From: Mucilaginibacter tolerans
Lineage (GTDB): Bacteria > Bacteroidota > Bacteroidia > Sphingobacteriales > Sphingobacteriaceae
Assembly (NCBI RefSeq): GCF_030519375.1
Contig: NZ_JAUMKB010000005.1
Span: 186,001 to 250,000 of the forward strand
DNA: 64,000 bases
Direction of reading: 5' to 3'
Below, one piece after another: positions 16,352 to 30,681 of the stretch. The notes below the pieces were generated by a model. That model worked only from the letters and a program-made list of their open reading frames with translations. It was not told the DNA's origin and did no database searches. The position numbers were made by a program, and so were the translations under genes. Every line of letters starts with the position of its first letter. The stretch's first letter is position 1.

Positions 16352-17437
16352 TTAATATACTTTCACCATAAACACATATGGCTTAATCTTTTTAACCTGT
16401 TGCTGACGGGTAAGATTAGCTAAAGTGTTCTCTGTGTTTAAAACAGGAATTTTGGTCAGCGAATCTTCCGGGATGTTTTTAATCGCATTCAATAAGTAAC
16501 CCGATTTAAGTGCAAAATGCACCCCTTCCAAACGGGTTTCTTTAGCCTTTACTATACCTATCACATTTCCTTTGCTATCCAGCAATGGGCCGCCACTATT
16601 TCCCGGGTTGATCGGAACCGATATTTCATAATCCAGCGTATCACCGTTCAAACCGTTCGCTGAAGTTAGCCTGCCATCGCCATACACAGGAGAATCCTGT
16701 GGAAAGCCAAAGGTGAACACATTTTCAGCTAAATCACTCTCTGAACGTTTAAAGGTATAAGGGACTTGTCCCAGGTTTTTGAACGAACTGTCAACCACCT
16801 TTAAGATAGATACATCACTTTGCGGATCATTATAAATTACTTTTACTTTATATGATCTTCCGGCAACATCCTGAACGTATACAGAATCGGCCCCGCTGAT
16901 TACGTGATAACTTGTTGCAATCAGTCCATTCGAAGTAATTGCAAATCCGGTACCACGGTATTTATCTGACGGCAATGGCCTTTGAGCCGACTTGATATCA
17001 TTAATGGATTTGATGATCTTTTTGTTTGAGTTATTCAGGATATCAACCTTCCGCCCCAACTCAGTATACGAATTATTGTTATTTAAATAGCCGGAAAAAA
17101 ACAGGGTAGCTAATACCGCAATAATAGCGATAGAAGCAGCCACCGATATTTTTGAATGATGGTGCCTCCACAATTGCACTATCCACGACGGATGAGCGGT
17201 TACCTCGTCGGCTATTGCATGTACGTCTATCTCCTGATGGATGGCATTCAAACGTTTTTCAAGCGCTACCCGCTCACCATATTGCCTTAACAACGCAGTG
17301 AATTGCTGGTGTTCAACAACACGGCTGTCAATTTCAGCGTTCTCACGGCGAAGTTGCTCAAACGCATTACGCTCTTCGGCGGTCATCTCGCCATTGAGGT
17401 AGCGTTCAATTGCTTCTATAAGTTGCTCGTCTCTCAT
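16352..17437 (-). CDS. Membrane-anchored anti-sigma-like/trypsin-like serine protease fusion
   Basis: 361 residues in three parts. Residues 1-95 are charged and helical, begin with IEAIERYLNGEMTAEERNAF, a pattern of Bacteroidota anti-sigma N-termini, and should be cytosolic. Residues 98-118 form one transmembrane helix. Residues 155-320 are a periplasmic trypsin-like (S1C, Do/HtrA-like) domain: GTGFAITSNGLIATSYHVI with His178, DPQSDVSILKV with Asp208, and PINPGNSGGPLL with Ser281, so the catalytic triad is intact. No PDZ domain follows. It lies 12 bp after the ECF sigma gene in the same operon. The likely role is to hold the sigma factor inside the cell and sense or degrade envelope substrates outside; this is inference. 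Confidence 0.85.
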   Translation of the reverse strand: MRDEQLIEAIERYLNGEMTAEERNAFEQLRRENAEIDSRVVEHQQFTALLRQYGERVALEKRLNAIHQEIDVHAIADEVTAHPSWIVQLWRHHHSKISVAASIAIIAVLATLFFSGYLNNNNSYTELGRKVDILNNSNKKIIKSINDIKSAQRPLPSDKYRGTGFAITSNGLIATSYHVISGADSVYVQDVAGRSYKVKVIYNDPQSDVSILKVVDSSFKNLGQVPYTFKRSESDLAENVFTFGFPQDSPVYGDGRLTSANGLNGDTLDYEISVPINPGNSGGPLLDSKGNVIGIVKAKETRLEGVHFALKSGYLLNAIKNIPEDSLTKIPVLNTENTLANLTRQQQVKKIKPYVFMVKVY

Positions 17438-17449
17438 TTCTTTGCTCCT

Positions 17450-18019
17450 TTATTTCTGCTGAAAAAATAACTTCTTCAGCCTTTGCAGGCATTTATATTT
17501 CTGTGTTTTGGCATTATCCGCATTGGTATAACCAAAACTCTCACAGATCTCCTGCATCGATCTGTTGTGGATATAAAAATCCTCTATGATAGTTTTGCAA
17601 GGTTCGCCCAGCAGCTGCAGGGCACTTTGCATTTTAGTAAACTGAATATCCCGTTCTCCCTGCTCTTCTACTTCACTCTCTACGGGCAAGTGCTCATGAA
17701 AATCATGAATATCGCCACCGTATCGGTTCATCTGGCTCAGTCTTTTTAACCAAAGCCGCCTGCAAACCGAATAAATAAATGTCTTTAGCTTGCTGTTAAG
17801 CTCAAAATCACCTTTTTTTACTTTATTATAAAGAACAATGATCGCCTCCTGGTATATATCCTTCGCGTCGTCCGGCGTTCCGTTGTTATTTAGTATCAGC
17901 TGCATCACCATCGGAAAATAGGCTACATACAGCCTTCTTATCGCATTTTCCGAGTTATTTAGGATCCCAAAAACAATCTCGCTGTCGGTTGGTATTGAAC
18001 TCTTTGATTCTGTATTCAC
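17450..18019 (-). CDS. ECF-type RNA polymerase sigma factor
   Basis: 189 residues. Region 2 spans about 25-95 (LYVAYFPMVMQLIL, DDAKDIYQEAIIVLYNKV, SKLKTFIYSVCRRLWLKRL) and region 4 about 125-185 (LLGEPCKTIIEDFYIHNRSMQEICESFGYTN, then a basic recognition-helix segment). The linker is acidic. The start codon is GTG at 18019 with no ATG before codon 37. A promoter-like element shared with the neighbouring lipoprotein genes lies immediately upstream, which points to self-activation. Operon with the membrane protease. Confidence 0.9.
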   Translation of the reverse strand: MNTESKSSIPTDSEIVFGILNNSENAIRRLYVAYFPMVMQLILNNNGTPDDAKDIYQEAIIVLYNKVKKGDFELNSKLKTFIYSVCRRLWLKRLSQMNRYGGDIHDFHEHLPVESEVEEQGERDIQFTKMQSALQLLGEPCKTIIEDFYIHNRSMQEICESFGYTNADNAKTQKYKCLQRLKKLFFQQK

Positions 18020-18020
18020 T

Positions 18021-18050
18021 ATTAATACTATTTAAGCGAAATTGTAACCC
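18021..18050 (-). promoter_or_regulatory. Candidate sigma-dependent promoter of the sigma gene (autoregulatory)
   Basis: Read on the minus strand: GGGTTAC (18050-18044), 15 bp, then GTATTAAT (18028-18021). The same -35/-10-like pair with the same spacing precedes the lipoprotein genes at 18863 and 19224, and with 16 bp the one at 18478. The -10 part ends two bases before the annotated GTG, so either the transcript is nearly leaderless or translation begins further in. Confidence 0.7.
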
Positions 18051-18154: not shown

Positions 18155-18349
18155 ATGAAAAACATTAGTAAATTAACTTTAGCCGTCCTGATTACCGGTT
18201 CATTTGCCGCTTGTAAAGGCACCCATTCAACCAGCACTACCGATACCACCAAGGTAGTCGATTCAACTAAAACAACCGTGGTTGATACAACCAAAAAAGC
18301 TCCGATGACAACAGATACAACTAAAAAGGATACGACCAAAAAGCCGTAA
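18155..18349 (+). CDS. Small Thr/Lys-rich lipoprotein 1 of a tandem array
   Basis: 64 residues. Signal peptide with lipobox GSFAAC; the lipidated residue would be Cys20. The mature part is a low-complexity run of D-T-T-K and D-S-T-K units ending TTKKP. No enzyme motif. It is divergent from the sigma factor gene and paralogous to the next three genes. Its upstream region has only a degraded version of the shared promoter element (CCGTTAT, 15 bp, ATACCATT near 18091-18119), so its regulation may differ. Confidence 0.75.
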   Translation: MKNISKLTLAVLITGSFAACKGTHSTSTTDTTKVVDSTKTTVVDTTKKAPMTTDTTKKDTTKKP

Positions 18350-18378
18350 TGTTTGAGCTATTAATTCTGTTCGATCGT

Positions 18379-18412
18379 AAAAGGTAACCCGTTTCTGGGC
18401 TGCCTTTTTTTA
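18379..18412 (+). terminator. Terminator of lipoprotein gene 1
   Basis: GG-taa-CCC and GGG-ctg-CC pair with a 3x3 internal loop (18383-18404), followed by a T-run. Part of this stem (GGTAACCC) is also the complement of the array's promoter -35 element. Confidence 0.6.
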
Positions 18413-18424
18413 TATTTTTTTGCC

Positions 18425-18455
18425 GGGTTACCTTTCCTGATTTTGCTGTATCAAT
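18425..18455 (+). promoter_or_regulatory. Shared promoter element, copy before lipoprotein 2
   Basis: GGGTTAC at 18425-18431, 16 bp, GTATCAAT at 18448-18455. The predicted start of transcription is about 18 nt before the ATG at 18478. Confidence 0.7.
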
Positions 18456-18477
18456 GCAAAACTTTAAACATTAAATC

Positions 18478-18684
18478 ATGAAAACATCATTAAAAATCGG
18501 GGTACTGGCAGTGGCATTTATGTTCTCAATTTCCTCATGTTCATCATGCGTGAGTAAAAACAAAAGCGGCTCGGAAGAAAAAATAGACACTCCTAAAACG
18601 ACAATCGATACGACCCAAAAAACAATAGATACAACCGGCAGAGCCGGGAGAGAACCGGTAAAGAAAGATAGTTTGAAAAAATAG
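18478..18684 (+). CDS. Small Thr/Lys-rich lipoprotein 2 of a tandem array
   Basis: 68 residues. Signal peptide with lipobox-like FSISSC (Cys21) and a second Cys three residues on. The mature part is hydrophilic with DTTQKTIDTT units and ends KKDSLKK. It is the most divergent of the four paralogues. It has its own upstream GGGTTAC/GTATC element and its own terminator. Confidence 0.75.
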   Translation: MKTSLKIGVLAVAFMFSISSCSSCVSKNKSGSEEKIDTPKTTIDTTQKTIDTTGRAGREPVKKDSLKK

Positions 18685-18713
18685 CAACCAATTTAAATAC
18701 GTGTTATAGTTTG

Positions 18714-18749
18714 GGGGTGGTTCCACAGCAGCGGGCTGCCCCTTTTTAT
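18714..18749 (+). terminator. Terminator of lipoprotein gene 2
   Basis: GGGGTGG (18714-18720) pairs with CTGCCCC (18736-18742), with two wobble pairs, followed by five T residues. Confidence 0.7.
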
Positions 18750-18808
18750 TGTTACCCCGGATATTTTATCAATCTGACAAATAATTTAATATTTTTTTAA
18801 AAAATGTA

Positions 18809-18838
18809 GGGTTACCTTTTCTGATTTGCTGTATTAAT
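18809..18838 (+). promoter_or_regulatory. Shared promoter element, copy before lipoprotein 3
   Basis: GGGTTAC at 18809-18815, 15 bp, GTATTAAT at 18831-18838. The ATG is 54 bp after the start of the element, as in copy 2 (53 bp). Confidence 0.72.
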
Positions 18839-18862
18839 GCTAAACATTAAACAAACTTTAAC

Positions 18863-19063
18863 ATGAAAAATTCGTTCAAAATTGGTTTCTTAGCTCTTGC
18901 TATCGCTGTTTCTGCTGCTGCTTGCAAAGGTAGCTCATCTGCTTCATCTGCTGACTCAGCTAAAGCTGATACTGCAAAACCTGCTGCTGTAGATACTGCT
19001 AAAAAAGACACTACTAAAGCTGCTGTTGACACTGCAAAAAAAGACACTACTAAAAAGAAATAA
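18863..19063 (+). CDS. Small Ala/Thr/Lys-rich lipoprotein 3 of a tandem array
   Basis: 66 residues. Signal peptide MKNSFKIGFLALAIAVSAAAC with lipobox Cys21. The mature part is built of D-T/S-A/T-K units (ADSAK, ADTAK, VDTAKKDTTK twice) and ends TTKKK. Codon use is strongly biased (nearly all Ala as GCT, Thr as ACT), as in abundantly expressed proteins. The first 23 residues are identical to lipoprotein 4. The terminal lysines recall peptidoglycan-linked lipoproteins, but no such link is shown. Confidence 0.8.
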   Translation: MKNSFKIGFLALAIAVSAAACKGSSSASSADSAKADTAKPAAVDTAKKDTTKAAVDTAKKDTTKKK

Positions 19064-19071
19064 TTTCTGAA

Positions 19072-19115
19072 CAGTACTAATTCATTTTAGTTTCTGTACT
19101 GATTATTAGTTTTTT
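19072..19115 (+). terminator. Terminator of lipoprotein gene 3
   Basis: CAGTAC (19072-19077) can pair with GTACTG (19096-19101), or ACTAAT with ATTAGT just before a run of T residues at 19110-19115. Confidence 0.5.
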
Positions 19116-19156
19116 ATACTTTTTTTGAAGGTAATCTATAATTTTTTGAAAATTAC

Positions 19157-19186
19157 GGGTTACCTTTTTTCATTTATGGTATTAAT
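19157..19186 (+). promoter_or_regulatory. Shared promoter element, copy before lipoprotein 4
   Basis: GGGTTAC at 19157-19163, 15 bp, GTATTAAT at 19179-19186, 67 bp before the ATG at 19224. Confidence 0.72.
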
Positions 19187-19223
19187 AGGCAAAACTATTA
19201 ATCACTTATTTAAAAAAACTAAA

Positions 19224-19448
19224 ATGAAAAATTCATTCAAAATCGGTTTCTTAGCTTTAGCTATCGCTGTTTCTGCTGCTGCTTGTAAAGGTAAAGGTGG
19301 TTCAGGATCTGCTGACTCTGCTAAGATGGCTGACTCAGCGAAAATGGCTGACTCAGCGAAAATGGCTACAGACACTGCTAAAAAAGACACTAGCAAAATG
19401 AAAATGTCTGCTGACACCACTAAAAAAGACACTACTAAAAAGAAATAA
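19224..19448 (+). CDS. Small Ala/Thr/Lys-rich lipoprotein 4 of a tandem array
   Basis: 74 residues. The start at 19224 is chosen because it begins the same signal peptide as lipoprotein 3; the frame extends to 19125 but that would place the start before the promoter element. Lipobox SAAAC, Cys21. The mature part holds three tandem ADSAKM repeats (two encoded by identical 18-bp units) and then DTAKKDTSK and DTTKKDTTKKK. Codon bias is strong. It is followed by a strong terminator. Confidence 0.8.
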   Translation: MKNSFKIGFLALAIAVSAAACKGKGGSGSADSAKMADSAKMADSAKMATDTAKKDTSKMKMSADTTKKDTTKKK

Positions 19449-19466: not shown

Positions 19467-19508
19467 AGAAAGCGCTCCCGGGTTTGCCAGGGGGCGCTTT
19501 TGTTTTTA
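19467..19508. terminator. Strong bidirectional terminator
   Basis: AAGCGCTCCC (19470-19479) pairs with GGGGGCGCTT (19490-19499) with one mismatch, followed by TTTGTTTTT. It serves the lipoprotein array on the plus strand and overlaps the end of the small minus-strand gene at 19506. Confidence 0.85.
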
Positions 19509-19670
19509 CTTCCTGGTGAACAAAGAGATAATCCAGATAATGATGATCACGACCACCAGTATCGCGATCACCCCAACTGCCACCCCCGCTTTAAATATGC
19601 CCGTAATAACCGAGCAGCTGCTTAGGGCAAATAATACCATTGTCAGCAGCAATAAGTTTAGCTTTTTCAT
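19506..19670 (-). CDS. Tiny lipoprotein with one membrane helix, 54 aa
   Basis: Short gene: signal segment MKKLNLLLLTMVLFALSSC with lipobox Cys19, then SVITGIFKAGVAVG and a long hydrophobic stretch (about residues 28-48) ending SLFTRK. This C-S-V-I-x-G-I-F-K-A-G pattern recurs in small Bacteroidota proteins that databases often label phosphatidate cytidylyltransferase by error; it has no enzymatic domain. It faces the lipoprotein array and shares its terminator. Confidence 0.75.
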   Translation of the reverse strand: MKKLNLLLLTMVLFALSSCSVITGIFKAGVAVGVIAILVVVIIIIWIISLFTRK

Positions 19671-30600: not shown

Positions 30601-30605
30601 GATTT

Positions 30606-30681
30606 AGATATGAGATTTGAGATAGGAGATTTGAGATTTTAACCTGTGATCATTGGGTCTCATATCTCATATCTCACATCT
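30606..30681. repeat. Periodic inverted repeat, locus C (perfect AGATNTG heptads)
   Basis: The left arm holds five contiguous heptads (AGATATG, AGATTTG, AGATAGG, AGATTTG, AGATTTT; 30606-30640). The right arm holds CATATCT, CATATCT, CACATCT (30661-30681), the inverse of the same unit, preceded by GGGTCT. It directly follows the tpiA stop codon on the minus strand. Confidence 0.8.

Follow-up and report, generated by a model that had tools for sequence, protein, structure and literature searches.

Four small lipoprotein genes lie in tandem at positions 18155-19448 of the 64,000-nucleotide stretch of the Mucilaginibacter tolerans genome analysed here (contig NZ_JAUMKB010000005.1, positions 186,001 to 250,000; hereafter the window), beside genes for an extracytoplasmic function (ECF) sigma factor and a putative protease-fused anti-sigma factor. 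We consider, with a probability of roughly 0.55, that these genes make up a self-amplifying ECF sigma circuit dedicated chiefly to the production of a mucin-like, O-glycosylated outer-membrane lipoprotein encoded by tandem duplicates. Conservation gives good support to the regulatory unit formed by the sigma factor, the protease protein and the lipoproteins. That the product is mucin-like and O-glycosylated is what we infer more specifically from the tails; this agrees well with the present family and less so with its distant relatives. On our best reading, these proteins would coat the outer membrane in a mucin-like, heavily O-glycosylated layer produced under envelope stress, and the cell envelope may have a lining of sugars. 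The features of the locus are as follows.

16352..17437, minus strand: putative anti-sigma factor, 361 residues (Pfam Trypsin_2, 84.7 bits; cut-off 27.6)
17450..18019, minus strand: ECF sigma factor, GTG start (TIGR02937, 67.9 bits; cut-off 42.9)
18022..18049, minus strand: predicted autoregulatory promoter of the sigma gene, GGTTAC-N15-GTATTAA
18093..18119, plus strand: degenerate promoter remnant 5' of lipoprotein 1, GTTATC (GGTTACC there in relatives L041 and L044)
18155..18349, plus strand: lipoprotein 1, 64 residues, 5 O-glycosylation sequons
18379..18408, plus strand: terminator hairpin 3' of gene 1, -12.6 kcal/mol, then a T run
18425..18454, plus strand: predicted sigma promoter of lipoprotein 2 (motif match)
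18478..18684, plus strand: lipoprotein 2, 68 residues, 3 sequons
18713..18743, plus strand: terminator hairpin 3' of gene 2, -15.9 kcal/mol, then a T run
18809..18837, plus strand: predicted sigma promoter of lipoprotein 3 (motif match)
18863..19063, plus strand: lipoprotein 3, 66 residues, 6 sequons, codon use like that of abundant proteins
19071..19110, plus strand: weak hairpin 3' of gene 3, -7.1 kcal/mol
19157..19185, plus strand: predicted sigma promoter of lipoprotein 4 (motif match)
19224..19448, plus strand: lipoprotein 4, 74 residues, 7 sequons, codon use like that of abundant proteins
19468..19501, plus strand: terminator hairpin 3' of gene 4, -22.5 kcal/mol, then a T run

The four open reading frames (ORFs) of the array were confirmed. 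In each of the hydrophilic proteins that they encode, a signal peptide of the lipoprotein type comes first and the cysteine occupies residue 20 or 21; the starts of neighbouring genes are 323, 385 and 361 bp apart. An earlier note on this DNA had described a tandem array of four hydrophilic, lysine-rich lipoproteins, each in a promoter-gene-terminator module of its own. The array, the hydrophilic character of its products and the modular layout hold, with promoters at genes 2 to 4, terminators at genes 1, 2 and 4, a degenerate promoter at gene 1 and a weak hairpin after gene 3. None of the plus-strand hairpins of the array was reported by a standard terminator scan of the window. The identical signal peptides that the note had ascribed to lipoproteins 3 and 4 extend over the same first 23 residues, and the abundant-protein codon bias claimed for both genes was also found: their codon adaptation index (0.744 and 0.678, respectively) falls in the range of five ribosomal-protein genes (0.613-0.756), the 39 window genes of at least 200 residues reaching at most 0.617. 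Within the array such codon use is confined to these two, genes 1 and 2 being ordinary (0.555 and 0.540), and at least lipoprotein genes 3 and 4 look highly expressed on this codon usage.

Relatives of gene 4 were found in 95 of 100 Mucilaginibacter genomes. Forty regions of this genus were fetched, and the 38 that contained the sigma gene made up, together with the window, a set of 39 loci (L047, at a contig end, and L055, a second locus, had no sigma gene and were dropped). In all 39 the protease gene adjoins the sigma gene and the lipoprotein genes lie on the opposite side; the count of array members in relatives, which the note had put forward as a check, rendered 2-4 lipoprotein genes per locus and 120 in total. 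All 20 loci examined in ten further genera of this family showed the same arrangement, with 1-4 lipoproteins each. In eight other families of the class, where regions were picked among full-length or near-full-length matches to the protease protein, a small lipoprotein gene adjoins the sigma gene in 19 of 20 loci (25 genes), no lipoprotein being found at locus L243. Lipoproteins were called with a lipobox pattern and a composition filter, the fraction of D/T/K/S/A/N after residue 20 having to exceed 0.55 in the Mucilaginibacter set and 0.58 in the family set (35 of 38 candidates kept, one protein being counted twice), and that of D/T/K/S/A/N plus E having to exceed 0.5 in the class set. The protease protein itself was matched in 300 of 301 family genomes at E 1e-10, weakly in some genera, perhaps through other HtrA proteins, and at class level in 66 of 296 genomes at E 1e-40, some of the matches covering the protease domain alone.

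The link of the array to a sigma factor, also proposed by the earlier note, is borne out by the divergent orientation of the sigma gene, by this conserved arrangement and by a common promoter. The lipoprotein promoter motif in Mucilaginibacter is GGGTTACC-N~14-GTATTAA. In the window the form GGGTTACCTTT-N-GTAT(T/C)AAT precedes genes 2, 3 and 4, with no exact match elsewhere in the 5.2 Mb genome. When relaxed to GGTTACN{14,17}GTATYAA, the pattern matched the genome nine times, with four matches in the array locus within 1.2 kb of each other, a clustering beyond chance; the five matches away from it lie inside open frames of at least 323 residues (four) or in a 71-residue frame (one). Outside coding frames the motif thus occurs almost exclusively at the array locus in this genome, so that the array looks like what a dedicated and self-amplifying sigma circuit chiefly produces. 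The full motif precedes 91 of the 120 Mucilaginibacter lipoprotein genes, including the last gene in 39/39 loci and the first in 20/39, and in the ten other family genera it was found upstream of 22/35 lipoprotein genes and in 17/20 loci. Moreover, the sigma gene has a promoter of its own in all 39 Mucilaginibacter loci, GGGTTAC-N15-GTATTAA, a close variant of the lipoprotein motif, which suggests that the gene is autoregulated. Since its GTG start mostly lies 2 or 3 bases after the -10 element (two bases in the window, at 18019 on the minus strand), the sigma mRNA is probably leaderless.

The promoter pattern was also searched in 60 genomes and gave 260 matches, against 37 with a reversed control pattern. 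Fifteen motif sites away from known arrays, picked for their likeness to array sites, were inspected. One of them (L129) was counted as that genome's own array because its protease gene lies 1.3 kb away. The other 14 precede genes for DUF4349-type proteins (six: L118, L121, L122, L123, L125 and L128; three of the six were scanned and all three matched), DUF2459 proteins (two: L116 and L127) and small membrane-like proteins (five), or no clear gene (one); the DUF4349-type and DUF2459 sites are in other Mucilaginibacter genomes. Further predicted targets of the sigma factor therefore exist in some Mucilaginibacter species.

The sigma protein also matches Sigma70_r2 (33.6 bits; cut-off 24). The protease-domain gene starts 12 bp past the sigma gene on the same strand, and the predicted layout of its product comprises a cytoplasmic N-terminus of ca. 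90 residues, one membrane helix and a periplasmic DegS-like (S1C) serine protease domain. An AlphaFold model built on an alignment of 45 sequences reached a predicted local distance difference test score (pLDDT) of 83.9 and was used instead of an earlier, poor model from 17 close relatives (pLDDT 51.6). It predicts a helical N-terminus and a long helix at residues 85-114 that covers the hydrophobic stretch. A fold search with residues 151-327 retrieved the protease domains of DegS and HtrA1 with Z about 20, one match being DegS 2qf0_G (Z 20.6, root-mean-square deviation 2.1, 164 residues), and the catalytic triad H178, D208 and S281 is invariant in 45/45 sequences. No PDZ domain was listed in the Pfam scan of this protein, its score against the DegS equivalog model TIGR02038 was 51.4 (cut-off 422.95), and its N-terminus had no useful match in the PDB. 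Position, topology and analogy together mark the product as a putative anti-sigma factor that carries a DegS-type domain of its own, and the presence of this domain would fit a role of the array as an envelope-stress output.

Bacteroidota O-glycosylate exported proteins at the sequon D-(S/T)-x, the third residue being L/I/V/T/A/S in about 90% of cases (PMC12871550). Sequons of the form D[ST][LIVTASM] are in clear excess in the lipoprotein tails: 702 against 146 after shuffling in the 120 Mucilaginibacter proteins, 202 against 53 in 35 proteins of the other family genera, 63 against 12 in 25 class-level proteins and 83 against 14 in 23 proteins of the PG1828 family (see below) that do not adjoin a sigma gene. 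This is an excess of about 4-6-fold in four sets with differing repeat units, which by lineage include DTTKK, DSAKM, DSTVKV, DSAAAKV and DTTVK and have the sequon in common. Aspartate is followed by serine or threonine in 751/784, 205/217, 65/93 and 87/102 cases, respectively, and the third residue then obeys the sequon in 702/748, 202/204, 63/65 and 83/85. In the window, the 5, 3, 6 and 7 sequons of lipoproteins 1-4 compare with shuffled means of 1.3, 0.5, 1.0 and 1.0, and the four array genes have the four highest sequon densities among the 129 ORFs of at least 55 residues.

Lysine richness, which the earlier note had stressed, was rejected as a conserved feature, since lysine content, charge and terminal lysine vary across genera. 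Lysine makes up 20.5% of the tails in Mucilaginibacter and 9.8% in the ten other genera, and the mean net tail charge changes from +3.2 to -3.4, whereas the density of D-(S/T)-(A/I/L/M/T/V) per 100 residues is practically the same (10.8 and 11.0). Pfam and NCBIfam names that arise from low complexity (New_glue, DUF3439, LpqN and others) were likewise set aside, being below their cut-offs for the window proteins. Acidic residues after the cysteine constitute the surface-export signal of Bacteroidota lipoproteins. None is found at positions +2 to +5 in 98 of the 120 Mucilaginibacter proteins, so that this signal is not evident, which favours a periplasmic face for the lipoproteins.

The nearest named family is the PG1828 lipoprotein family (NCBIfam NF050142; PG1828 of Porphyromonas gingivalis). 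The window lipoproteins score 21.8, 20.3, 25.2 and 28.9 bits against this model, all below its cut-off of 50, and 33 of 40 aligned sequences match it at E <=0.01 (best, 4.4e-15); on these profile scores the window lipoproteins are distant relatives of the family, bridged by their own relatives. Like the array proteins, members of the PG1828 family are small lipoproteins with a low-complexity tail, and a difference is that 23 members counted across the class, with D-(S/T)-x repeats, are not beside a sigma gene within the 3 kb stretches read. These came from 30 loci (L253-L282), of which seven were left out, one for a larger protein and six for being beside a sigma gene or in Sphingobacteriaceae. 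Going by tag numbers alone, we take PG1828 to adjoin PG1827 (SigH) in P. gingivalis. The tag PG1827 corresponds to the ECF factor SigH (PMC5607195), and PG1827-PG1828 may be the same sigma-lipoprotein pair, as far as tag numbers can indicate. A term search of the available main text of a P. gingivalis glycoproteome paper (PMC8729774) found no mention of PG1828, and no description of the family covering sigma control or sequon density was found in the open-access literature.

Some further observations concern the surroundings of the array and its genome. A small lipoprotein-like membrane protein is encoded 3' of the array (19506-19670, minus strand); it has no family match, and relatives are similarly placed in many Mucilaginibacter loci. 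A fifth lipoprotein paralogue of 85 residues, without the GGTTACC promoter, is located outside the array (C29:106805; L003:1501-1758), flanked by two copies of an unnamed protein of ca. 115 residues (L003 568-912 and 1911-2258). Elsewhere in the window, positions 30601-30639 contain 5.7 copies of a GATTTGA tandem repeat.

The circuit that we propose would operate as follows. In the resting cell, the sigma factor would be held by the cytoplasmic N-terminus of the neighbouring membrane protein. To judge from the fold and from DegS/RseA, periplasmic stress would act on the DegS-like domain, leading to cleavage of the anti-sigma factor and release of sigma, and the freed sigma would use the common promoter to transcribe every lipoprotein gene as well as the sigma operon itself, a step that conservation supports. 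After export, the lipoproteins would receive a lipid on the cysteine and be held by it in the outer membrane, where the disordered tail of ca. 45 residues would acquire O-glycans at several D-(S/T)-x sites from the general system of Bacteroidota. The result could be a mucin-like brush that bears glycans, is anchored by its lipid and probably faces the periplasm, and that would serve to pad, space or shield the envelope; duplication of the lipoprotein gene would be a simple route to a higher dose.

Several observations weigh against this reading. Tandem repeats inflate sequon counts and make counts within a protein dependent, so that comparing lineages carries more weight. At class level, 10 of 25 relatives have at most one sequon and acidic or alanine-rich tails, and glycosylation therefore cannot be the entire conserved function; the gene arrangement extends further than high sequon content, and what all these proteins share may be a plain disordered brush. 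Mucilaginibacter locus L077 carries D-S-P units, which the sequon rule disfavours. On the regulatory side, gene 1 has no clear promoter, the full motif is missing from 29 of the 120 Mucilaginibacter lipoprotein genes and precedes no more than 7 of the 25 class-level ones (the -35 part alone being found in 17), and Pfam does not recognise an anti-sigma domain (zf-HC2 scores 12.1 bits against a cut-off of 22.2). It could be the case that the lipoproteins form an unmodified polymer brush of disordered, hydrophilic spacers, with a composition that drifts from lineage to lineage and with D-(S/T)-x as a by-product of low complexity. Such a brush would account for the tails of several distant sigma-linked relatives, which are rich in E/A/P/V and have few sequons, and for the near absence of aromatic residues from the tails in all sets. 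Although it is the alternative to be taken most seriously, we regard it as unlikely, given the sequon excess in all four sets, a third residue that fits in 94-99% of cases, and the nearly complete occupancy that such sites generally show beyond the cytoplasm (PMC12871550).

On the other hand, the small size and high-expression codons of these proteins recall a Braun-type tether, in which a lipid would anchor the protein in the outer membrane and an L,D-transpeptidase would join its C-terminal lysine to peptidoglycan, the array setting the distance between membrane and wall. Lipoproteins 2, 3 and 4 do end in lysine, and lysine occurs within the last two residues in 114/120 Mucilaginibacter proteins (a basic residue, K, R or H, in 115/120, with 29/35 and 20/25 at family and class level). 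Moreover, 3 of the 40 aligned sequences weakly match the alanine-zipper Lpp/OprI model NF040598, and, according to the discussion in PMC5607195, the inter-membrane distance is altered in the P. gingivalis ECF mutants sigP and sigH. A terminal lysine is found, however, in only 65/120, 11/35 and 11/25 proteins of the Mucilaginibacter, family and class sets, 23 of the 39 last genes end in K-M, and the spacing of D[ST] in Mucilaginibacter tails is mainly 5-8 (5, 44%; 6, 23%; 7, 15%), with no strict heptad, so that an alanine-zipper coiled coil would not be expected there; a tether is therefore doubtful, a little more so than the brush. We find it improbable that the lipoproteins serve as a gauge, their unglycosylated or mislocalised tails being read by the protease domain of the anti-sigma factor as a measure of export or glycosylation capacity. 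Output and putative sensor adjoin in nearly all loci examined, the triad is kept, and the domain is DegS-like, DegS of E. coli being a reader of protein termini, but no PDZ domain was found in the Pfam scan and a reporter would need neither 2-4-fold amplification nor strong codon bias. Low-complexity tails in tandem copies could finally be taken for chance ORFs or for a recent, functionless parasitic repeat, an explanation refuted by the presence of relatives in nearly all Mucilaginibacter genomes and by the conserved gene order, promoter and codon bias.

Beyond the window, we tentatively raise the possibility that much of the Bacteroidia keeps this stress circuit, an ECF sigma factor with a DegS-type-protease anti-sigma factor, for a periplasmic mucin consisting of arrays of lipid-anchored O-glycan acceptors, a counterpart of the Braun lipoprotein. 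If so, Bacteroidota would have an abundant protein of that kind setting envelope spacing, with glycans in place of the coiled coil. The function of Bacteroidota O-glycosylation is largely unknown (PMC12871550), and the locus would offer a handle on it, in the form of compact proteins made up almost wholly of predicted acceptor sites. It would equally be a handle on the partners of Bacteroidetes ECF factors, only 6% of which have a class I anti-sigma partner nearby (PMC7406223), since it combines a protease-fused candidate anti-sigma factor with a clean promoter motif and has an obvious reporter.

No description of a system of sigma factor, protease protein and small lipoproteins was found in the open-access literature, where most subscription papers are missing. 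The claim of the earlier note that no system of this form had been described stands for the sigma-linked set, but not for the lipoproteins as such, NCBIfam already naming the distant PG1828 family. The general O-glycosylation described in PMC12871550 shares the D-(S/T)-x sequon in exported proteins; the available part of that paper does not mention small lipoproteins packed with sequons and produced as a dedicated set under a sigma factor. RsgI9 of Clostridium thermocellum (PDB 7sjy, PMC12203970) is likewise an anti-sigma factor with an S1C protease-like domain outside the membrane, but it is of the SigI type, Gram-positive, connected with carbohydrate binding and an orphan without a known sigma factor. 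Dma1 and Dma2 of Bacteroides thetaiotaomicron (PMC13088901), compared here by their description only, are also Bacteroidota membrane anti-sigma factors that steer envelope outputs via an ECF sigma factor. They extend, however, all the way between outer membrane and cytosol, have effects on vesicles and on polysaccharide loci, and have no protease domain in the description available. The periplasmic part of the putative anti-sigma factor of the window is modelled as a protease domain. The Braun lipoprotein (Lpp/OprI) differs in its conserved C-terminal lysine, which window-type lipoproteins do not keep. The DegS-RseA-sigmaE system of E. coli is alike in its periplasmic DegS-type protease domain, its ECF sigma factor and its envelope output; in the locus described here, protease and putative anti-sigma factor would be fused, without a PDZ domain, and in place of the broad regulon of sigmaE the output would consist mainly of one lipoprotein family.

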